Shown here: positions 32,975 to 47,363 of the stretch, piece after piece
Layout of the letters: each line of letters begins with the position of its first letter
How positions within the stretch are numbered: the stretch's first letter is position 1
Assembly: GCA_027021385.1 (NCBI GenBank)
Contig: JALUUL010000037.1
Span: 1-64,000, forward strand
Length of the DNA: 64,000 nucleotides
Source: Planctomycetota bacterium
GTDB lineage: Bacteria > Planctomycetota > UBA1135 > GCA-002748355
Reading direction: 5' to 3'
The notes under the pieces: generated by a model
Databases searched by the model: none
What the model was told of the DNA's origin: nothing
The model's input: only the letters and a program-made list of their open reading frames with translations
Made by a program: the position numbers and the translations under genes

Positions 32975-33964
32975 TCACACCCCCCGGCGCAGGATCCGAT
33001 CGAGCCACGCGTAGGCGCGGCTCCCTTCCTTCAGCTTGCGGACGGAACGCGCCCCCAGGAACTGGGCGAGGTTCTGGGAGAAGGCGTAGGGGATGACCTT
33101 GCTCCACCAGAGGAGCCTCCCCGGAGGGCTCAGCCCGGGGTCCCGGGCCACGACCTTCAAGAAATGGCCGATCCCGTGCAGGCTGCAGTTCCAGACATCC
33201 CTCCAGCGGGGGATCGTATGCACCCCGAAGAGCTGGTGGAGGTTGTGGTGGTCGAGATAGATCCTCTTGAACTCGTACCAGATCGAGTTGTTGTGCGAAT
33301 GGACGACCTTGGATCTCGGTTCGAAGACGACCTTCCAACCCGCAAGGACGACCCGGTGCCCCCAGTCGAGATCCTCCCCGAATCGCCGCTTGCGGAACGG
33401 GATCTCAAGGGCGGTCGCGCGGCGGACGCTCGAACTCACGTTGTCGAAAGCGACCCGCGCGAGTTTCTCGAGCGGGGGAAGGGCTTCGAAGCTCGAGGGA
33501 TCCTCGATTTCCTGGACCCGCGGCTCCTCCCGGGACGCGACCCAGCTCGAGAGGCGGTCCTTGATGAAGGGGTTCGCGTCGGGACGGGGCAACTGGCGGC
33601 TGTAGGCCCCCGCGACGCGGGGATCGTCGAAGCAGTCGACGAGACGCTGCATCCAATGTTCGTCGAAGGGCATCGCGTCCTGCGTCGCCAGGATGACGAT
33701 TTCCCCCTTCGCCTCGCGAATGCCCAGATTCCTCGTCAGGCCATGATCGAACTCGTGGTTCGGGATCCGGATCAGGCGCACGGGCCGTGATTCCAGGAAC
33801 TCCACGGTCCCGTCCCCGGATCCCGAATCGATGCACAGGATCTCGTAGGGCCGGTCGCAGTTCTGGGCCATCATCCGTTCCAGGATCGCGGGGAATTCCT
33901 TTCCCGCGTTCCAGGTCGGAATCACGATGCTGACTCCGGGTTTATCCTCGGGGGCGAACGGCAT
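32975..33964 (-). CDS. GT2 family glycosyltransferase
   Basis: This 329-aa GT-A enzyme is the last gene of the four-gene glycan operon, starting 3 nt after the preceding stop. It has the nucleotide-sugar-binding N-terminus (SIVIPTWNAGKEFPAILERM), an ILCIDSGSGDGT loop, and a TQDAMPFDEHW segment corresponding to the DxD region. The later GEDLDWGHRVVLAGW block matches the ED motif of rhamnosyltransferase-like GT2 proteins, so transfer of rhamnose is possible. No membrane anchor is seen. Confidence 0.93.
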   Translation of the reverse strand: MPFAPEDKPGVSIVIPTWNAGKEFPAILERMMAQNCDRPYEILCIDSGSGDGTVEFLESRPVRLIRIPNHEFDHGLTRNLGIREAKGEIVILATQDAMPFDEHWMQRLVDCFDDPRVAGAYSRQLPRPDANPFIKDRLSSWVASREEPRVQEIEDPSSFEALPPLEKLARVAFDNVSSSVRRATALEIPFRKRRFGEDLDWGHRVVLAGWKVVFEPRSKVVHSHNNSIWYEFKRIYLDHHNLHQLFGVHTIPRWRDVWNCSLHGIGHFLKVVARDPGLSPPGRLLWWSKVIPYAFSQNLAQFLGARSVRKLKEGSRAYAWLDRILRRGV

Positions 33965-33967
33965 GAA

Positions 33968-35287
33968 CTACCCTCCGGCCCTCGCCCGCAGCTCCTCGTA
34001 GAGGGCGCAGGTCTCGGCGGCGCACTCCTCGATCGAACGGACGAGCCCGCCCTTTCCGGCCATCTCCCTGCGGAGTTCGCGGTCCCCGCAGAGCCGCTCG
34101 AGCACACGCGCGAGGTCCCCGGCGTTCCCGGCCTCGAAACCGAGTGCGAGCCCCTGTTCGACGGCTTCCCCGACGCCCCCCAAGCGTCCCGCGACGACCG
34201 GAAGACCGGCGAGGGCCCCTTCCCGGGCGGTCAGACAGAAGGTCTCCCACCAGATCGAGGGGACGACGAGGAGATCGAGCCCTTTCAGGATCCCGGGGAG
34301 TTCCCCGCTCCGATATCCTCCGTGCAGGCGGAGTTCGATGTCATCGCCTGCGAGTTCCCGGAGCCGGTCCCCGTATCCGCGGTCCCCGTGGTAATCGAGC
34401 AACTCTCCGTGGATGTCGAGGACTATCCCCTCCCGTTCGAGCCTCTTGCAGGCCTCAACGAGGACGTGGACGCCCTTGCTCGGAATCACCGAGCCCAGGA
34501 AGCCGATGTGCCGGACCTCATCGCAATCGTGCGGAGGGGCCTCGAGCCCCTCACGGGGCAGGCCGTGCTCGATGAAACGACAGCGGGCCCCGTCCAGCCC
34601 CCACTCGAGGAAACGGTCCCGGTGGAATCGGGAGGGGGCGATCGTCGCATCGCAGAGGTCTAGCATGCGTTTCACGAAGGCCTCGCGCCAGGCGTAGTTC
34701 TCCTCGGCCTCCCCCGGACCGTGGAACCATGCGCGGATCCTCCCGAGGAGCCCGCCCTGCGGATCGCCGCCCGGGAGGAGATGCGGCCAGAGCCTCCGCA
34801 GGCACGGAAGGCAGCGTTTCCGCTCGATCCTCGTGCAGATCTCCAGATCCTCCGGGCGGATCCGCTGGCCCCGCGGGCATTGGAGCCAGTAATCGTGGAG
34901 GGTCATGACGAGGGGAAGCCCCCTCTCCTTGACTTCCCGGAGGATCGAGCAAGAGAGGCAGGTCAGGTGATGGACATGGACGAGATCGGGCCTGCATTCC
35001 TCGAGGACCTCGACGAACTTCGCATCGATCCCCGGGTGCTCGAAGAGAAGGGAGAAGCGATCGACATCCAGGAAGTTGTTCCGGAGGCGGTGGACGGGTA
35101 CGCCCTCGAACTCGTCCCGCTGGATCTCGAACTCGGGACCCTCCCCGTCCTGCCGCGTGAAGATCACCGGCTCCCAGCCGAAGGATCCCTGCGCCCGGCA
35201 GAGATCCCGAAGATGGAGCTGCGTGCCCCCCGCGTCCCCGGGGAGGTAGCCGCTGACGACGTGCAGGACCCTGCGGGGGGCGCTCAT
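33968..35287 (-). CDS. GT4 family glycosyltransferase
   Basis: This 439-aa GT-B enzyme starts ATG at 35287, overlapping the previous stop (ATGA). The N-terminal domain has VVSGYLPGDAGGTQLHLRDL and DLVHVHHLTCLS; a cysteine-containing CPRGQRIRPEDLEICTR insert follows. The C-terminal nucleotide-sugar domain has HIGFLGSVIPSKGVHVLVEA and the acidic ETFCLTAREGALAGLPVVAG region with the EX7E-type motif. It is closely similar in layout to the GT4 gene upstream and the GT4 part of the fusion protein, suggesting duplication. Donor and acceptor are unknown. Confidence 0.94.
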   Translation of the reverse strand: MSAPRRVLHVVSGYLPGDAGGTQLHLRDLCRAQGSFGWEPVIFTRQDGEGPEFEIQRDEFEGVPVHRLRNNFLDVDRFSLLFEHPGIDAKFVEVLEECRPDLVHVHHLTCLSCSILREVKERGLPLVMTLHDYWLQCPRGQRIRPEDLEICTRIERKRCLPCLRRLWPHLLPGGDPQGGLLGRIRAWFHGPGEAEENYAWREAFVKRMLDLCDATIAPSRFHRDRFLEWGLDGARCRFIEHGLPREGLEAPPHDCDEVRHIGFLGSVIPSKGVHVLVEACKRLEREGIVLDIHGELLDYHGDRGYGDRLRELAGDDIELRLHGGYRSGELPGILKGLDLLVVPSIWWETFCLTAREGALAGLPVVAGRLGGVGEAVEQGLALGFEAGNAGDLARVLERLCGDRELRREMAGKGGLVRSIEECAAETCALYEELRARAGG

Positions 35288-36657
35288 CGTTCGGGAAGCC
35301 CCCCGTCACGGAGGATCCGGTACCTCTCCTCCATCAGGTCCGTGTCCTCCCCGATGGTCTTGACCTTCGGAAATCGGCCCCGCAGGGACTCGAGGAGGCC
35401 CGGCTCTTCGAGCAGTCGGCGGATCTTCCGCGCGAGGTCAGCCGCGTTCCCCATCTCGAAGTGCAGGCCGTGGACTCCGTCCTCGACGAGTTCCGCCATT
35501 CCTCCCCGGTCCGCGGTCAGGACCGGAACTCCGGCGAGGAAGGCCTCGTGGATCGTCAGTGGGCTGTTCTCGAACCAGAGCGAGGGGACGACGAGGACAT
35601 CGAGCCCGGCGAGCACCTCGCCGATCCTCGCATTGTCGAAGCGCCCTTCGAAGCTCAGGTTCGAGGGCCGCTCCATCGCCTCGAGTTCCTCCCCGTAATC
35701 GGGGAAGGTCCGCATGTCCCCGTAGATCCGGCACTCGATCCCGGGAAGATCGAGATCCCGGAAGGCCTCGACGAGCAGGTGTACGCCCTTGTAGGGTGCG
35801 ATCGTTCCGATGTAGCCGATCCGGAGGCGATCGGAGGGGACCCGCTCGACCTTGTGGAAATGAGCGATCTGGAACCCGTTGTCCGAATGGAGGATGCGCT
35901 CGGGAGCCATCATTCGGTTCTCGAGGAAGAGCTTCCTGAGGAAGGCGGAGGGAGATAGGAAGAGATCGACCTTGGAGAGCCGCCTGCGCACCTCGACCAG
36001 CCTCCTCGAGACGGCCGCGACATAGGGGTCCTCCCCGTTCCCGGGGACCGGGGGGGCGGCCTCCCGGCGGAAGAGCCCGCCGATTCCGCTGCGGAGCCCC
36101 TTCGGAAGGAGGCGCTTGGCCCATCGCTCCAGGGGACCCGGGGGGGGAACCGGCGGGGCGTCGGGCCGGGGGAGGAAGGTCGCGCAGGCGGCGCAGAGTC
36201 CCGGATCGGGGGCCTCGCAGACCCCTCCGTCAGGCCGGAGCAGCTGTCCCCCGCGCAGGCACATCAGGATGTATTCATGGAGGGTGTAGACCATCGGCAG
36301 CCCCCGGCGGTGAACCTCGTCGATGTAGCCCAGGCTGTGGAGATGGAGATGCTGGAAATGCACGAGGTCAGGGGGGAACGAGGCAAGGACCTTCCGGAAG
36401 TTCTCCTCCTGGCGCGGATCGAGGTAATGGGCCTCGAAACGATCGAAGGCGTGGTTGTGCACGGCCTCGTGGATCCAAAGGCCCTCGTGTTCCCGTTCCC
36501 CCAGTTCGTATTGGGGACGTTCGGGATGGATCTCGGTCGTGAAGATCCGCACCTCGTGGCCGCGGGCCTGGAGTTCCTTCGCGAGCACGAAGGTGTAGAT
36601 CTCCGTGCCGGCGGCGTGCCGGGGGAGGAACTGGTGGACGACGAAGAGAATCTTCAC
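35284..36657 (-). CDS. GT4 family glycosyltransferase
   Basis: This 457-aa GT-B enzyme starts with GTG at 36657, overlapping the end of the fusion gene (GTGA). Motifs: FVVHQFLPRHAAGTEIYTFV at the N-terminus, DLVHFQHLHLHSLG, a CxxC-like region (EAPDPGLCAACATFLP), RIGYIGTIAPYKGVHLLVEA and NSPLTIHEAFLAGVPVLTAD. Like its neighbours it carries a cysteine-rich insert after the first Rossmann half. It is part of the four-gene glycan operon. Confidence 0.94.
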   Translation of the reverse strand: MKILFVVHQFLPRHAAGTEIYTFVLAKELQARGHEVRIFTTEIHPERPQYELGEREHEGLWIHEAVHNHAFDRFEAHYLDPRQEENFRKVLASFPPDLVHFQHLHLHSLGYIDEVHRRGLPMVYTLHEYILMCLRGGQLLRPDGGVCEAPDPGLCAACATFLPRPDAPPVPPPGPLERWAKRLLPKGLRSGIGGLFRREAAPPVPGNGEDPYVAAVSRRLVEVRRRLSKVDLFLSPSAFLRKLFLENRMMAPERILHSDNGFQIAHFHKVERVPSDRLRIGYIGTIAPYKGVHLLVEAFRDLDLPGIECRIYGDMRTFPDYGEELEAMERPSNLSFEGRFDNARIGEVLAGLDVLVVPSLWFENSPLTIHEAFLAGVPVLTADRGGMAELVEDGVHGLHFEMGNAADLARKIRRLLEEPGLLESLRGRFPKVKTIGEDTDLMEERYRILRDGGLPER

Positions 36658-39600
36658 TTCGCGAAGCGTACCCGGATCGCCGCCCCGAGGTCGAGGACGC
36701 GGTTCAGGGGCCAGGTTAGCGGAAGTAGGATGAGGTGCACCCTCCGGTAGCGCCGGTTTTCGCGTTGGGTCGCGGCCAGGACTTCCCGGGTCGCCCGGAT
36801 TTCCTCGGCCAGACGGTCGCGCTCCTTCGTCCGCAGGGCGAGATCGGCCGCGAGCCTGTCACGCTCCTCCGTCCGCAGGGCCAGTTCCGATTCGACACGT
36901 TCCCGGGCCTCCCGATTCTCCCTGAGAGCTTCCTCGACCTCGGCGTATTCCCTCCGGACGCGCGCGAGTTCCCGGCGGTGCTCCGCCAGGTCCTCCCGGT
37001 GCTCGTCGAGGCTCCTGCGATGCTCCTCGAGACTCTTGCACAACTCGGCCCGCTCGGCCTCGTAACTCTCCTCGAGGTCGACCAGCCTGCGCCTGTGCTC
37101 TGCGAGATCCGCTTCCTGGTCCTCGACCCGTTCCCGGTATTCCTCGACGCTCCTCTCGAGTTCGGCCAGGGCTTCGGCCAAGGCCGCCCGTTCCGATTCG
37201 GCCTTTTCGCGCAAACCGTCGAGTTCGCGGCAACGGTCCTCGAATCTCCGGGCCGTATCCTCCCATCTGGCGAGTGCTCGCATGTCTTCCTCCGATCCCG
37301 CCACGGGCGGGGGGGGGCCGCCTTCCGTCTCCCGGACCGCGGCGTACAGGGTTTTTAGTTCGTTCCAATGTTCGGCCATGCTCCGGGGCGCGGGCAGCCT
37401 CTCCCTCCAGGCCTCGAGCCTTGCCGGGTCCTCGAGCACGGATTCGAGCAGGGCGGCCAGGGCGCCGGCGTCCCCGGGAGGAAACAGGGCTCCGGCCCCC
37501 CCGATCCGCTCGGGCAGGGCGCCCCTCTCCGAGCCCAGGACGGGAAGGCCCAGGGCGAAGGCCTCGTCGAGGACGAAAGACCAGCTCTCGTGCGCGAGGG
37601 TCGGAAAGACCGCGAGGTCGGCCTCGAGTTCGGCGAGGTCTTCCCTGCGGAAGGCGGACCTCCGCCGAACCTCGATCCCTTCGAGGAGGGAGGCGAGACC
37701 GTCACCGTATTTCGCCTCGACCGCCTCTCCCCAGAGTTCGAGAACGACCTGTCCGGGACGTTCCAGCCGGTGGAGGGCCTCGAGAAGGAGATGTACCCCC
37801 TTGACCTCCTGGAGATGCCCCCAATGGGCGATCCGCAGAGGGCGCCCGGCGTCGAAGGCCGGCGGGAGGGGACGGGTCGCGCGGCGCTCCCCGTCGAAGA
37901 GCGCTCCGTGCGGCAGGACGGTGATCCGACCCTCGAGGTCGGGCCGGAATCGGGTGAGGAGTCGGGCGTGAGCGCGGCTCGGAGCCAGCAGGAGGGAGGC
38001 GGCCCCGGTCTCGGCCGCGAAGTCCTCGTCGAACCATTCGAGAAGGGCGTCAAGATCCTCCTCCCGCATCCAGCGCTCCCTAGGAACACAGTCCCGGCAG
38101 CCCTCGGGCCCGAGCGGCCTCATGCAGAAGGACTCCCCCTCCCTGATCCGGACGATCCGGGGACAGGTCGTGAAGAGATCGTGAAGATGGAGGACGACCG
38201 GAAGCCCGGCATCCCGGCAGAGGCGGACCAGGGAACGCGAAAGGCGCAACCACTGGTGCACATGGACGAGGTCGGGCCGTTCCTCCTCGAGGATCCCCAG
38301 GATCGTCGACTCGAGACGCGGGCAGGGTACGTGGTCCCAGCGTTCGTGGAACATTCCGGGATGCAGGCAGCGCCAGACCGAGATCCCCCCTTCCTCCTCC
38401 CTTCGGGCGAGGGGGATCGTCTCACCCTCCGGCGCCCCCGCTCCGCTTCCGGCGGCGACCGCGACTTTCCAACCGGAGGCCCGCTGCTCCTCCGCGAGGA
38501 GACGCACGTAGGACTCGGTGCCCCCGACGAACTCCGGCGGGAATCCGTGACAGAAATGGAGGACCTTGGGCCGGGGCGGAGCTTCTTCCCCCTCCGGTTC
38601 CGGTGCGCCTCGAGGTTCCGGCCGGGTCCCCCAGGAAAACCGGACCTCCCGCCTCGCCGGGCGGCCCTCCTCCCCTTCGAAGTCGAGGACCAGGGCCCCG
38701 TCCCGAATCTCCGCCCCCTCGACCCTTGTGGGCCTCTCCCCGCGGAGGCGGAGACGGACGCTCCGGCGGCCGGGCGGGGCCTCGAAGAGGAAGCGGCATT
38801 CCCGTTCCCCGAGTTCCCCCTCCCGTTCGAGGAGACGGACATCCCCCTTCCCGGCGGTCTCGACGAGGATCCGGGGGCGGATCCGGAACTCGAGCCCGAG
38901 TTCGAGCCCCGGCCGGAGTTCCCGATCCCTGAGCCAGAGGAGGCAGCCCCCCGGAAAGGTCTCGCATTCGTTAGGCAGCGCGCGATCCCCCTCGAAGACG
39001 CCCTCGACCTCGGAAGGGGCGGGCGCGAAGATCCCCAGGTCGGCCACGCCCTCCCCCTCCCCCTCGACGGTGAGCCGCAGGAGGAATCCTTCCTCCTCCC
39101 TCTGGATCTCGCCCGAGAGTTCGAGATCCCTCCAGCGGAGACGGCGGAAGGAAAGGCGGTCGAGTTCGTCGGGCAGCCGGGGAGCCAGTTCGAACCGGCC
39201 CCCATCCCCCGGACGGGCGCCGAGAAGGCCCGTGACGAGGGGGCCGAGCAAGGCGGCGTGGCTCCAGGCCTGGTGGGGACAGACACCCCGCGGTTCGTAG
39301 CGTTCTCCGTCGAGTACCTCTGCGAGAAGCCCCCGGTCGAAATCGAGGACCAGCCGGAGCAGGGCCTCGGTCCTGAGCCAACCGAGGTCCGGGCGGCCGT
39401 AGAGATAGGAAGCGAGCGCCGCGAAGCCCCCGAACAAGGGCCAGACACTCCCGCCCTGGTAGGAACGAGGGTCGTAGCGCGGATCCCCCGCCGGGAGCAG
39501 GCGCTGTCCCCAGGGAGCGAGGGCCGCCAGGGTCGAGGCCTGGGCAAGCGCTCGGGCCGCTCTCCGCCCGTCCCGCCCGGGGAGGAGAAAGGGTTGCAGA

Positions 39601-41864
39601 TGGAGGGCCGAGGGCGAGGGGTCGAAGGACCCGTCGGTCTTGAGCGCATGCGCATAGCGGCCGCGCTCCTCGTCCCAGAAGCCCTCCTCGATCGCCTCCC
39701 GGATCCGGCGGGCCTGCGCGGCCCATTCGGCCGCGCGCCCCGGTTCCCCGAAATCCCCGGCGAGCCGTGCCCCTGCCCGATAGGCCTCTTCCTGCCGGAC
39801 CGCGTGGTAGAGCTCGACCCGCACCCCGTCACGGAGCGGCCCCCCCTCGATCCAACCGTGCCCGACCCCCTCGTTCTCCGAGAGACCGTCACCGTCCCGG
39901 TCCCGTTCGCTCAGGAAGGTGAGGGCGCGTTCGACGGCCGGGAAGAGTTCTCGGGCGAGATCGCGGTCGCCTGTCCAGTCGAGATGGTCCGCGACCCCGG
40001 CGACGAACATCGGGGTTGCGTCGGCCGCGTCGTAGTGTGCGGTGCCCGCAGGCGTGATCTCGTGGGCGATCTCCCCCCGCGGTCCCTGCGTCCGGGCGAG
40101 CAGGCGCAGGTGATCGGCCGAGCCCTCGCGATCCCCGAAGGGCAGGAAGGCGCGGGCGCACCAGAGGCCGTCCCGCCCGAACCACCAGGCGTAGCCGGGC
40201 CTCGCCGCGTTCCAGCCCGGACGGCAGAGCGCGAAGCCCGCGAACCAACCCCGGGCGCCGGGCAGGACCGGGGCGTCCCCGGCCGTGCCAAGGCGGAAGT
40301 CCCAGCTCTTGTCCAGCGCGAAACGCAGTCCTCGGTCGCGCCGCGGATCCCCGAAGGAGATTTCGAGCCTAGCAGACCGCCTCTCCCGGACCCGCCGGCG
40401 ATGGGCCTCGAGCATCGAGTGCATTGGAATGGACCGGAGGTCCATCAGCGCGCGGACCGCCCCTCCCGCCTTCCGTCCGGCGGCCAGCCTCCAACCGCAC
40501 AGCTCCCCGGCCGGGAGGTCGACCTCGAAACGGATTTCGACCCCCGGTCCTCCGTCCTCCGGTTCCCCGGCCTCGAGGGACCGGAGCAGGTCTTCGCGGT
40601 CGAGGGCGAGGGCGAAGGCGCCGAGGCCGGACTCGCACTCACAGAGAACCGCCCCCCCGCCCCCATCCCCGAGGAGGAGCCCCCCCTGGGCTCCTTCCGG
40701 ATAGGGCCAGTAGAGCCTGAGATCGGCTACGAAGCGGAACCGGATGCGGAGATCCCGTTCCGCGTGGAGGAAGCCCGCGAGGCTCCGGGGCTCCGACCCG
40801 GGAAACCAGGTCTCGACGAGCCCCGCTTCGCTCCTCCTCGAGGCGACGAGGGGATGCAGGTCGAGCCTGCCCCCTTCGAGTGGAACCGGCTCCCCCTCCC
40901 CTTCCGCCGCCTCGACCGACAGGGCGCGCAGCAACCGCAGCGGAGGAGCCCAGACCTCGGCCAGCCCAAGGTCGGCCCGCCCGAGCGCGAACAGCTCCCC
41001 CTCGGGGTCCACTAGGTCGAAGAACTCGTTCCCGGCCCCCTCGCCGGGAAGGCCGTCCTCCCGGAACAGCGACGAACGGGTCTCGAGCAAGGCCTCGGGA
41101 TCCTCCTCCGCGCAGGGGCTCGCAGCGAAGGTCTCCCCTCCCCAGCCCCCGAAGGCCTTTCCCCGCCGCATCCTCCAGGCCGGACCCTCTCCTCCCCGTC
41201 CCGCCATCAGGTAGTCGCAGAGGTCTCCTGTGAAGCGCAAGCGGGCTTCGAGGAACGGATCCTCGACGACCTCCCCGGGATCGAAGACGAGATGCGCCCC
41301 GACCGACAGGACGAGACCGCGGCCGGGACGGTGTTCGGCCAGGAGCCCGGTATGCGCATCGATGCCGAGGAAGACCCTCTCGACGGCGAGCAATCTCCCG
41401 TCCTCGGGGCTCTCCCCTCCCCACCACCCGGCCCCACCGACCCTGCATCCTCCATACGGACGGCGGAGGTCCACTCCTCCGGGAAAGCGGTGGAAGAGCG
41501 GCGCTCCGGGCATCGGTGCGAGGCCGAGCCGGTCCTCGGGCCGGAGCGGGCCCTCCCAGACCCGGACCCTCGGGACCGGGGGGCGACGTTCGAAGCCGAG
41601 CGGACCCAGGAGGGCCGCGGCCGTCCCGCTCAGAAGGAGCCGCCCTCCCTCCCGGACCCAATCGGCCAGGGCCTCGCAGGCTAAGGGATCCGGCGTGAAG
41701 GGCTCCTCCCCGGGTCCGAGATGGATCCAACAGAGATCCAGCTCCGCGAACTCGGCCGGAATCCCCGCGGCAAGGCCGAATTCCTGCCTCTTACCGAAAT
41801 CCCGAACCAGGGCCCTCCGTTCGGGGCCCTCTCTGGCGACCAGGAGGATTCGGGCCGTTCCCAT
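36654..41864 (-). CDS. Giant fusion: glycosidase, GT4 glycosyltransferase and coiled coil
   Basis: This single uninterrupted ORF of 1736 aa is the first gene of the glycan operon. Residues 1-230 form an alpha/beta region (MGTARILLVAREGPER). Residues of about 500-900 are an (alpha/alpha)6 glycosidase of the amylo-alpha-1,6-glucosidase/GH15 type, with AWWFGRDGLWCARAF, DRDGDGLSENEG and GVCPHQAWSHAALLGP. Residues of about 900-1095 are beta-rich. Residues of about 1100-1505 form a complete GT4 enzyme (VLHFCHGFPPEFVGGTESYV, DLVHVHQWLRL, AHWGHLQEVKGVHLLLEA). Residues of about 1528-1706 are a long charged coiled coil with heptad-like LAEHRRE/RDRLAADLAL repeats. A short hydrophobic end (VHLILLPLTWPLNRVLDLG) may bind membrane. 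A trimming-and-adding or length-measuring glycan enzyme is possible; this is inference. Confidence 0.9.
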   Translation of the reverse strand: MGTARILLVAREGPERRALVRDFGKRQEFGLAAGIPAEFAELDLCWIHLGPGEEPFTPDPLACEALADWVREGGRLLLSGTAAALLGPLGFERRPPVPRVRVWEGPLRPEDRLGLAPMPGAPLFHRFPGGVDLRRPYGGCRVGGAGWWGGESPEDGRLLAVERVFLGIDAHTGLLAEHRPGRGLVLSVGAHLVFDPGEVVEDPFLEARLRFTGDLCDYLMAGRGGEGPAWRMRRGKAFGGWGGETFAASPCAEEDPEALLETRSSLFREDGLPGEGAGNEFFDLVDPEGELFALGRADLGLAEVWAPPLRLLRALSVEAAEGEGEPVPLEGGRLDLHPLVASRRSEAGLVETWFPGSEPRSLAGFLHAERDLRIRFRFVADLRLYWPYPEGAQGGLLLGDGGGGAVLCECESGLGAFALALDREDLLRSLEAGEPEDGGPGVEIRFEVDLPAGELCGWRLAAGRKAGGAVRALMDLRSIPMHSMLEAHRRRVRERRSARLEISFGDPRRDRGLRFALDKSWDFRLGTAGDAPVLPGARGWFAGFALCRPGWNAARPGYAWWFGRDGLWCARAFLPFGDREGSADHLRLLARTQGPRGEIAHEITPAGTAHYDAADATPMFVAGVADHLDWTGDRDLARELFPAVERALTFLSERDRDGDGLSENEGVGHGWIEGGPLRDGVRVELYHAVRQEEAYRAGARLAGDFGEPGRAAEWAAQARRIREAIEEGFWDEERGRYAHALKTDGSFDPSPSALHLQPFLLPGRDGRRAARALAQASTLAALAPWGQRLLPAGDPRYDPRSYQGGSVWPLFGGFAALASYLYGRPDLGWLRTEALLRLVLDFDRGLLAEVLDGERYEPRGVCPHQAWSHAALLGPLVTGLLGARPGDGGRFELAPRLPDELDRLSFRRLRWRDLELSGEIQREEEGFLLRLTVEGEGEGVADLGIFAPAPSEVEGVFEGDRALPNECETFPGGCLLWLRDRELRPGLELGLEFRIRPRILVETAGKGDVRLLEREGELGERECRFLFEAPPGRRSVRLRLRGERPTRVEGAEIRDGALVLDFEGEEGRPARREVRFSWGTRPEPRGAPEPEGEEAPPRPKVLHFCHGFPPEFVGGTESYVRLLAEEQRASGWKVAVAAGSGAGAPEGETIPLARREEEGGISVWRCLHPGMFHERWDHVPCPRLESTILGILEEERPDLVHVHQWLRLSRSLVRLCRDAGLPVVLHLHDLFTTCPRIVRIREGESFCMRPLGPEGCRDCVPRERWMREEDLDALLEWFDEDFAAETGAASLLLAPSRAHARLLTRFRPDLEGRITVLPHGALFDGERRATRPLPPAFDAGRPLRIAHWGHLQEVKGVHLLLEALHRLERPGQVVLELWGEAVEAKYGDGLASLLEGIEVRRRSAFRREDLAELEADLAVFPTLAHESWSFVLDEAFALGLPVLGSERGALPERIGGAGALFPPGDAGALAALLESVLEDPARLEAWRERLPAPRSMAEHWNELKTLYAAVRETEGGPPPPVAGSEEDMRALARWEDTARRFEDRCRELDGLREKAESERAALAEALAELERSVEEYRERVEDQEADLAEHRRRLVDLEESYEAERAELCKSLEEHRRSLDEHREDLAEHRRELARVRREYAEVEEALRENREARERVESELALRTEERDRLAADLALRTKERDRLAEEIRATREVLAATQRENRRYRRVHLILLPLTWPLNRVLDLGAAIRVRFAK

Positions 41865-42001: not shown

Positions 42002-43594
42002 ATGCGCATCACGCTGATCCACCCTCCGGTCTTCCTCAACGTCCACGCGATGACGGCCCTGCGGCCCGCCCTCCCCCTGGGACTCGCCTACGTGGCTGGC
42101 AGCCTGCGCGCGGCCGGCCACGAGGTCTCTCTGATCGACGCGGTCGCGGAGGCCCCCGACCGGGTGACCCGCGACGACCTCGACCCCCGAATCTTCCGCC
42201 TGGGCCTTTCCCCCGAGGAGATCTCCGCCCGCGTCGGGAAGGACTGCGACGCGATCGGACTGACGAACATGTGGTCCTTCTCCTGGCCGCTCGTCCGCCG
42301 GATCGTGAAACGCCTGAAGGCCGACCACCCCGAACTCCCCCTCGTTTGCGGCGGCGAACACTTCTCGGGGCTTCCCGAGTTCTCGATGTCCCAGGCCCCG
42401 ATCGACGTCATCGTGCGGGGCGAGGGCGAGGAGGCCGCAGTCGAGGTCTTCGCCGCCCTCGAGAAGGGACGCCGGACCTTCGAGGACATCCAGGGGGTCG
42501 TCTACCACGAGGGCGGAACCCTCGAGGGCCGGCCCGTCCGGACCCCGGATCGGACGCGCCGCCGCGAACTCGACGAGATCCCCTGGCCAGCCTGGGACCT
42601 ATTTGACGTCAAGGCCTACGACGAACACGACCTCGTCGCGGGCTTGCACGCCGGCAACACGATCCCGATCCTTGCGACCCGCGGCTGTCCCTACCAGTGC
42701 ACGTATTGCTCCAATCCCGGCATGTGGACGACCCGCTGGTACGCCCGCAACCCCGCGAAGGTCGTCGACGAGATCGAGTACTACGTCCGCCGTTACCAGG
42801 CCCGGAACTTCCCGTTCCAGGACCTGACGGCCATCCTGAAGAAGGATTGGATCGTCGCCTTCTGTGAGGAACTCCTCCGCCGCAACCTCCGGATCACCTG
42901 GCAGTTCCCCTCGGGCACGCGCTGCGAGGTCATCGACGACGAGGTGGCCCGCCTGCTGCGCCTGACCGGAGGTCGTTCGCTGGCCTTCGCCCCCGAAAGC
43001 GGCAGCGAACGGACGCGCAAGCTGATCCGCAAGCAGATGAAGGAGGAGTCCCTGATGGATGCGGTCCGCGCCTCCGTCCGCCACGACCTGAACATCACCT
43101 CCTTCACGGTCATCGGCTTCCCCCACGACACGAAGGAGGACCTGAGGGAGACGACCCGCCTCGCCCGACGTCTCGCGGCGGCAGGGATCGACGACATCGC
43201 GATCGGCTTCTTCTTCCCGATCCCGAACACCCGGCTCTTCGACGAACTCCTGGAACGCGGGCGGGTCGACCTCTCCGACCGTTTTCTGCTGACTCCGATC
43301 TTCGCGAACGACGAGCGCTGCGAGGAGGAGAACAACTACTGCGACCACCTCACGGCCAAGCAGCTCACTTCCTGGAAATACCGGATCCTCCTCAACTTCT
43401 ACCTCGTCTCCGTCCTGACCCATCCCTGGCGGGTCTTCTCCCTCCTCTGGAACGTCCTTCGGGGCCGGGAAACGCGGAAGATGGAGACCTTCCTGATCGA
43501 GTTGAAGCGCAAGGGTTGGATCTGGATCCGCTCCAAACTCGGTCTCGAGGGCGTCCCCGCCCGGAATTCGGGAGCCGAGGCCTCCGCTACCTAG
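42002..43594 (+). CDS. B12-binding radical SAM protein
   Basis: This 530-aa protein has an N-terminal cobalamin-binding-like Rossmann region (LIHPPVFLN, GLAYVAGSLRAAGHEVSLID, VIVRGEGEEAAVEV), then a radical SAM core with the 4Fe-4S motif CPYQCTYC (near residue 230), a TRGCPY lead-in and a FAPESGSERTRKLI segment. The C-terminus has hydrophobic stretches (FYLVSVLTHPWRVFSLLWNVL). The family catalyses methylations and other radical steps on lipids, sugars or natural products. It is divergent from the glycan operon, so a glycan or lipid substrate is possible. No strong ribosome binding site precedes the ATG. Confidence 0.93.
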   Translation: MRITLIHPPVFLNVHAMTALRPALPLGLAYVAGSLRAAGHEVSLIDAVAEAPDRVTRDDLDPRIFRLGLSPEEISARVGKDCDAIGLTNMWSFSWPLVRRIVKRLKADHPELPLVCGGEHFSGLPEFSMSQAPIDVIVRGEGEEAAVEVFAALEKGRRTFEDIQGVVYHEGGTLEGRPVRTPDRTRRRELDEIPWPAWDLFDVKAYDEHDLVAGLHAGNTIPILATRGCPYQCTYCSNPGMWTTRWYARNPAKVVDEIEYYVRRYQARNFPFQDLTAILKKDWIVAFCEELLRRNLRITWQFPSGTRCEVIDDEVARLLRLTGGRSLAFAPESGSERTRKLIRKQMKEESLMDAVRASVRHDLNITSFTVIGFPHDTKEDLRETTRLARRLAAAGIDDIAIGFFFPIPNTRLFDELLERGRVDLSDRFLLTPIFANDERCEEENNYCDHLTAKQLTSWKYRILLNFYLVSVLTHPWRVFSLLWNVLRGRETRKMETFLIELKRKGWIWIRSKLGLEGVPARNSGAEASAT

Positions 43595-45998: not shown

Positions 45999-47363
45999 TC
46001 AGCCGCCGACGACCGTGCAGCGGGGCTCGACCCGGTCCTTGGAGAGGAGGGCCGGCCAGTAGCCGACGACTTCCTGGGGTTTCGGCCGTCCTCCGGCGAA
46101 GCCGGTCACTCCGGGTGGCCCCGAGGTCACGAGGGGGACGATCTCCATGCCGAAACGGGCGACCTTGGCCCGGTCGGGGTCCCGAACCCCGATCCGGAGC
46201 ACGACTTCCGGGGGATCCCCGGGGGCCTCAACGATGCCCCGATGGCAGACTCCGGTTCCGAGGAACTCGACCGTCTTCCTCTCCTCGGGGAACTCGACCC
46301 CGTCCATCGCCGCCCTTTCGAAGACGATATCCGCACAGAGGCGGGCCTTGGCCAAGGCGTCGGGGCCCGAAATCACGAGCTGCCCGCTCGCCTTCCAACC
46401 GTCCCTGTAGGAAATCGAGACCTTGTAGGTATCGGTCGGCGGGCGGCCGCGGACTCCGTGCACCCGTACCCGGTCGGGTCCTTCCGGATCGAGCCGGATG
46501 CTCGTGAAGTCCGCGACGACATCGGGGCCGATGTAGGCGGAAGGATCCCCCATCTCGTAGACGAGCTGGGAACTCACGGTCTCGCGGGTCACGAGACCGC
46601 CGGTCCCCTCGTGCTTCGTCACGACGAACGAGCCGTCCGGACGGGCCTCGATGATCGGGTAACCGATCCGGGCCATGTCAGGGACCTTCCTCCAATCCGA
46701 GAAGTTCCCCCCCGTGCACTGCGGGCCGCATTCGAGGATGTGCCCCGCGACGGTCGCGGAGGCGAGTTCATCCCAGTCGTCCATCGACCAGCCGAACTCA
46801 TGGATCATCGGAGCCATGACCAGGGAAGGATCCGTCAACCTGCCGCCGACGATGATCTGCGCGCCCCGCCGAAGACATTCGACGATCGGAGCCGCCCCGA
46901 GGTAGACGTTCGCGCTGCTGATGCGGTCACGGATCGCGTCGAGAGCCTCTCCATCGTCCATGTTCCGGAGTTCTTCCCCCGAGGCCCGCAACTCGTCGAG
47001 CCGATCGAGGATATCGTCGCCCTCGATCCTCCCGACCTTCAGCCCCTTGCACCCGTGACGGGCCGCGACCTCGAGCACGGCCTCGACACAGGCTTGAGGA
47101 TTCACCCCCCCTGCGTTCGCGATGACCGTGACGCCCTTCTCGACGATCTCCGGAAGGAGACGGTCCAACATCCGGATGAAATCGGTCGCGTACCCGGCCT
47201 CGGGGTTCCGGGAACGTTGCTTCTGCAGGATGCTCATCGTGACCTCGGCCAGGTAGTCGAGGGTCAGGTAGTCGAGGGGGCCCTCGCGAAGGAGGCGGAC
47301 CGGACCGAGGATCGAATCCCCCCAGAAACCCTGCCCGTTGGCGATGCGCACCAGGTCCTTCAT
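45999..47363 (-). CDS. AtuA-like protein (DUF1446 family)
   Basis: This 454-aa protein matches the acyclic terpene utilisation AtuA/DUF1446 family over its length: RIANGQGFWGDSILGP at the start, LTLDYLAEVTMSILQ, VIANAGGVNPQACVEAV, IIVGGRLTDPSLVMAPMIHEFGW and GPQCTGGNFSDW. In Pseudomonas, AtuA is needed for growth on citronellol-type terpenes alongside geranyl-CoA carboxylase and the leucine enzymes, but its reaction is not established. It is alone here, 32 kb from the liu operon; a fused AtuA/C domain is absent. Confidence 0.93.
   Translation of the reverse strand: MKDLVRIANGQGFWGDSILGPVRLLREGPLDYLTLDYLAEVTMSILQKQRSRNPEAGYATDFIRMLDRLLPEIVEKGVTVIANAGGVNPQACVEAVLEVAARHGCKGLKVGRIEGDDILDRLDELRASGEELRNMDDGEALDAIRDRISSANVYLGAAPIVECLRRGAQIIVGGRLTDPSLVMAPMIHEFGWSMDDWDELASATVAGHILECGPQCTGGNFSDWRKVPDMARIGYPIIEARPDGSFVVTKHEGTGGLVTRETVSSQLVYEMGDPSAYIGPDVVADFTSIRLDPEGPDRVRVHGVRGRPPTDTYKVSISYRDGWKASGQLVISGPDALAKARLCADIVFERAAMDGVEFPEERKTVEFLGTGVCHRGIVEAPGDPPEVVLRIGVRDPDRAKVARFGMEIVPLVTSGPPGVTGFAGGRPKPQEVVGYWPALLSKDRVEPRCTVVGG

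Follow-up and report, generated by a model that had tools for sequence, protein, structure and literature searches.

A single gene of a Planctomycetota bacterium encodes a predicted glycosidase, a complete GT4 glycosyltransferase and a coiled coil in one polypeptide of 1736 residues. The fusion is lineage-specific and unites genes that are kept apart in sister genera. With a probability of about 0.45, we read the product as a coiled-coil glycan-assembly protein of the WbbB/WbdD kind to whose distal end a glycosidase has been added and which would act, membrane-associated, in a glycosyltransferase complex building a lipid-linked surface glycan.

Gene organization

The stretch of DNA analysed (the window) comprises 64 000 nucleotides of contig JALUUL010000037.1, which belongs to a draft genome of 86 contigs. 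The fused gene is a single uninterrupted open reading frame with an ATG start. The features discussed below are:

32975..33964 (-), GT2 gene
33968..35287 (-), GT4c gene
35284..36657 (-), GT4b gene
36654..41864 (-), fused glycosidase-GT4-coiled-coil gene, 1736 aa
36657..36746 (-), residues 1707-1736, conserved amphipathic C-terminal helix
36747..37292 (-), residues 1525-1706, predicted coiled-coil helix
37332..38576 (-), residues 1097-1511, GT4a glycosyltransferase
38577..38630 (-), residues 1079-1096, Pro/Glu-rich linker, the fusion point
38631..39218 (-), residues 883-1078, glycosidase C-terminal beta domain
39219..40244 (-), residues 541-882, (alpha/alpha)6 glycosidase domain (GDE_C / MGH1-like)
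39318..39320 (-), E849, predicted general base
39846..39848 (-), E673, predicted general acid (motif GW-I-E-GG)
40245..41189 (-), residues 226-540, glycosidase beta-sandwich domain and linker helices
41190..41864 (-), residues 1-225, Rossmann-like (GATase-like) N-terminal domain
42002..43594 (+), B12-binding radical-SAM gene

The stop codon of the fused gene and the start codon of the GT4b gene overlap in GTGA (36654-36657), as stated in an earlier note on this DNA, which had described a coupling to further GT4 and GT2 genes. GT4b and GT4c overlap in ATGA (35284-35287), and the GT2 gene starts 3 nt past GT4c. Given these overlaps and the short gap, the four genes seem to form a single operon. 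The family assignments of the three downstream genes and of the radical-SAM gene, which lies head-to-head with the fused gene, are based on Pfam; a PHROGs search gave nothing useful. An AtuA-family gene (window 45999-47363, minus strand) has apparent homologues near the glycosidase locus in two related genomes, G007 (L044:11401-12828) and G005 (L042:168-1589), so that the neighbourhood is partly conserved.

The glycosidase half

Pfam matches above the curated cut-offs were obtained for GDE_C and MGH1-like_GH (residues 563-873), Glyco_hydro_65C (887-924) and a complete GT4 pair (1113-1488). The AlphaFold model of residues 1-1090 (pLDDT 82, pTM 0.88) begins with a Rossmann-like domain, continues with a beta-sandwich and an (alpha/alpha)6 barrel, and ends in a C-terminal beta domain. 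The domains named in the earlier note are thus all found in one chain, while two others had escaped it: the N-terminal domain of 225 residues, in which strands and helices alternate in the model and which matched no Pfam family, and the C-terminal beta domain of about 195 residues, delimited by its modelled strands and by Glyco_hydro_65C and shared by L039 and L017, two relatives with split genes. The beta-sandwich and linker helices were assigned from the secondary structure of the model. The linker at the fusion point was recognized from its composition and has pLDDT values below 50 at residues 1081-1090.

The (alpha/alpha)6 fold which had been postulated for the glycosidase was recovered in the model. 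The closest solved structure by sequence is 7vma, an archaeal amylo-alpha-1,6-glucosidase (1.3e-15), and the same structure leads the Foldseek ranking (2.7e-22), followed by the cyclic beta-1,2-glucan synthase 8rf0 and GH94 phosphorylases, and then by GH63 and GH15-type enzymes. The combination of an (alpha/alpha)6 barrel with an N-terminal beta-sandwich, with 7vma on top, is that of the GH133/GDE glucosidases. The GDE_C score is 31.9 at a cut-off of 21, and MGH1-like_GH scores higher; among the homologues, L108 falls below the GDE_C cut-off and L109 is unlisted. From sequence and model, the domain is best read as a GDE/GH94-like, predicted exo-acting alpha/alpha6 enzyme.

When aligned to 7vma, the protein has E673 (in GWIEGG) opposite the Asp of GWKDS and E849 (in LLAEVLDG) opposite the Glu of LPELYSG, and LPELYSG itself can be aligned, though weakly, to FPEYYDG of alkaline invertase. 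Both acids expected of such a glycosidase are therefore present by alignment, and we predict that they form the acid/base pair; in the glycogen debranching enzyme CgGDE, the acid is Asp1241 and the base Glu1492 (PMC4837477). The putative base Glu favours hydrolysis over phosphorolysis, judged by how glycosidase families work. Both residues are intact in seven members, the window protein and six relatives, with Glu at the acid position in all seven. They have been lost together in G003 and G004 (L054, L055) and in L113. The last (L113:6774-9881, genome G053), from another family, is thus a second instance of this double loss, and still lies beside the radical-SAM gene.

A housekeeping role in glycogen debranching is unlikely. 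A true glycogen debranching enzyme with GDE_N and GDE_C is encoded elsewhere in the genome, on contig C71 (L050:6574-10136), so the glycosidase of the window is probably not that enzyme. A GT4/GT5-like glycosyltransferase gene directly follows the debranching enzyme gene.

GT4a, coiled coil and tail

The second half of the protein has the traits of a GT4 enzyme: matches to GT-B folds, both Pfam halves and the EX7E pair (E1426/E1434). In the AlphaFold model of residues 1096-1736, the GT-B enzyme is followed by one helix (1525-1706) and a second helix (1718-1735), with low confidence near the C-terminal end. The first helix, about 182 residues long, agrees with the predicted coiled coil of about 180 residues. 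Its 3.5-residue periodicity signal was matched by 34 of 2000 shuffles and is modest evidence. The hydrophobic end which had been assigned to the coiled coil did not stand. The tail is amphipathic with a net charge of +5 to +7, is shared with four relatives and has a low pLDDT; its hydrophobicity is below transmembrane strength, and a transmembrane C-terminus is not supported. No transmembrane segment is apparent in the sequence or the models of the fused protein. In the ruler-type proteins WbdD and WbbB, too, a catalytic module is followed by a long coiled coil. The GT4a proteins of G005 and G001 are devoid of the coiled coil.

Occurrence and origin of the fusion

Fused reading frames with the same domain order and 39–40% identity occur in two other Planctomycetota assemblies, placed in the phylum by their contig names, which represent one other genus of the same family: G003 (1624 aa, loci L040/L054) and G004 (1639 aa, L041/L055). 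Since homologous frames share the domain order in independent assemblies, the layout is more than chance. The join in the window might be an artefact of assembly or sequencing, considering that relatives encode the parts separately and that the genome is a draft; because the identical join is found in two independent assemblies of another genus, we regard a mis-join or chimeric read as hardly credible.

The search for the domain order in other genomes gave a mixed picture. In G002 and G007, the glycosidase and the GT4-coiled coil protein are encoded by separate adjacent genes in the same order, with stop codons between them in direct translation; in G007 the glycosidase is also cut by a contig break. 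The glycosidase of G005 lies on the opposite strand. In G001, GT4a is fused to a GT4 and abutted by the radical-SAM gene, and the search gave no strong match to the glycosidase. The order glycosidase-GT4-coiled coil was met in three genomes of two genera only, and no fusion was found in other families in samples of 61 genomes of the order and 119 of the phylum.

When the N-terminal domain and three glycosyltransferases are concatenated, the resulting tree groups the three fused genomes (95/98). The tree of GT4 alone does not decide between one and two fusions (p-AU 0.33) and leaves two independent events possible, but the concatenated tree favours a single origin. The simplest history is one fusion in the ancestor of the two genera and a later loss of catalysis in G003/G004. 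Between these two proteins, identity is 72% for the N-terminal domain and GT4, 66% for the coiled coil and tail, 54% for the barrel and 45% for the sandwich. Their glycosidase module lost the acids without acquiring stop codons (dN/dS about 0.18, at near-saturated dS).

Radical-SAM partner and related planctomycete proteins

A few genomes, both within the order and in the wider phylum, encode the glycosidase as a standalone protein of about 1000 residues. Head-to-head pairing with the B12-binding radical-SAM gene recurs in three standalone genomes (L108, L109, L113), in G007 (L044) and in the window. The three standalone genomes have several radical-SAM paralogues, of which the glycosidase-linked copy is the most window-like. 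In another family, the pair stands without neighbouring GT genes. The glycosidase thus has an association that is independent of GT genes, and its substrate may be unrelated to the glycan of the cluster. The radical-SAM protein is 63–77% identical across several genera and families.

Other planctomycetes carry large proteins of 1200–1450 aa (L060, L063, L064, L061, L059 and others) in which GT4a is followed by a coiled-coil-like segment of 300–400 residues and by GT4b in one chain; the separate GT4b of the window resembles their C-terminal part. In L060, the next protein is a GT4c-GT2 fusion (L060:7527-9785), and proteins of similar length occur in others. The modules of the window (GT4a-coiled coil, GT4b, GT4c, GT2) are colinear with these (GT4a-coiled coil-GT4b, GT4c-GT2) and only the cut points differ, as would be expected of interacting subunits of one complex. 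The large proteins lack a glycosidase and no description of them was found in the literature; they look like an undescribed modular glycan-assembly family. In L063, PIG-L and SPASM radical-SAM genes lie upstream of the GT4-coiled coil-GT4 gene.

Comparison with known systems

In the O-antigen systems of Klebsiella pneumoniae and E. coli, a coiled-coil protein holds the terminating enzyme distal to the membrane-bound polymerase and so sets chain length, while the polymerase modules are spread variably over one or several polypeptides (PMC11231755). WbbB (K. pneumoniae O12), WbdD and the K. pneumoniae O4/O7 terminators likewise carry an N-terminal catalytic module on a long coiled coil, and WbdD has an amphipathic membrane helix (PMC11231755), to which the conserved cationic tail described here, modelled at low pLDDT, may correspond. 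With the terminator at the distal end and variable polymerase modules, on the same or on separate polypeptides as in the window, the WbdD-type layout is one into which GT4a, coiled coil and tail fit. The distal modules differ: methyltransferase-kinase or Kdo transferases there, GT4 and a glycosidase here. Unlike in those systems, no local ABC transporter was seen in the cluster (no Wzm/Wzt among the cluster genes scanned), and a ruler function is suggested here by analogy. The sole Wzt_C match of the genome is on contig C30 in another glycan cluster (L051, 10000-28000), which comprises a Wzt-like ABC ATPase, two PIG-L-like genes, and GT4 and GT2-like genes.

In cyclic beta-1,2-glucan synthase, an (alpha/alpha)6 domain within the synthase controls length (PMC10901819). 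This enzyme (GT84 plus GH94) shares with the window protein the presence of a glycosyltransferase and an (alpha/alpha)6 domain on one polypeptide, in line with its second place in the fold ranking, and the window protein may be read best as its functional analogue. It is not a member of that class, which has GT84, six transmembrane helices and a phosphorylase, whereas the window protein has GT4, no transmembrane helix and a putative base suggestive of hydrolysis. The class of amylo-alpha-1,6-glucosidases and GC domains of debranching enzymes, to which 7vma and CgGDE (PMC4837477) belong, gives the best match in sequence and fold, and the acid and base positions align with those of 7vma; compared with these enzymes, the acid is Glu rather than Asp, GDE_N is missing, and the N-terminal Rossmann-like and C-terminal beta domains are additional.

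No enzyme of this layout was known to the earlier note, and our literature search found no paper describing the order glycosidase-GT4-coiled coil. As far as searched, the exact domain order appears new; each design principle has a precedent, in the length control by (alpha/alpha)6 domain and glycosyltransferase and in the GT-coiled coil-GT architecture of WbbB.

Proposed role and alternatives

We propose that the fused protein is cytoplasmic and membrane-associated, its amphipathic tail binding the membrane, and that GT4a at the N-terminal end of the coiled coil would make it a ruler-type subunit. Together with GT4b, GT4c and GT2 it may form the complex that builds a lipid-linked surface glycan. 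An upstream exo-glycosidase gene would have become fused onto the distal, N-terminal end in the common ancestor of the two genera; the glycosidase may trim the chain, and the sister genus may have kept it as a dead module, perhaps a binding domain. The machine for glycan editing or chain-length control which had been suggested for this gene finds a precedent in the coiled-coil rulers of WbdD, WbbB and K. pneumoniae O4/O7 (PMC11231755). The lineage-specific nature of the fusion, the lost acids and the radical-SAM association of the glycosidase away from GT genes weaken it. Against the proposed role also stand the missing Wzm/Wzt among the cluster genes scanned, the GT4a proteins without a coiled coil in G005 and G001, the modest periodicity and the catalytically dead glycosidase of L113 and of the second fused genus.

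Trimming is the most attractive reading of the glycosidase, to be set alongside two others. The glycosidase may serve another process, together with the radical-SAM protein, and may have been joined to GT4a merely through adjacency in an operon, the two halves acting independently. We consider this possible, if less probable than the proposed role: the glycosidase/radical-SAM pair stands by itself in another family, the halves are separate in G002 and G007 and on opposite strands in G005, and in G001 the radical-SAM gene directly abuts GT4a. A chance joining is at odds with the single reading frame having been kept in two genera since their split, even after the loss of catalysis in one, and with an N-terminal domain that is as conserved as GT4 in G003/G004. 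Alternatively, the module could be a glycan-binding or scaffold domain of the glycosyltransferase complex, catalysis being secondary or dispensable. The barrels of G003/G004, maintained after the loss of their acids, and the similar loss in L113 point in this direction; the window protein and the majority of its relatives retain the acids and surrounding motifs, and we find this explanation rather unlikely. The catalytically dead copy of the sister genus lends both alternatives some support over trimming, and the fused form cannot depend on active trimming. Slightly more doubtful still is a 'ruler with scissors', in which a working exo-glycosidase at the far tip of the coiled coil would trim the growing chains reaching it, and length would be set by cutting, not by capping.

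Implications

The coiled-coil length-control proteins of known function that we met in the literature come from proteobacteria and carry distal modules which add a cap. A lineage with a glycosidase in this place, in which sister species encode the parts separately and one genus has lost catalysis, provides a natural series for asking whether cutting can set glycan length. The finding draws attention, moreover, to a set of modular glycan-assembly proteins in Planctomycetota which appears to be undescribed.
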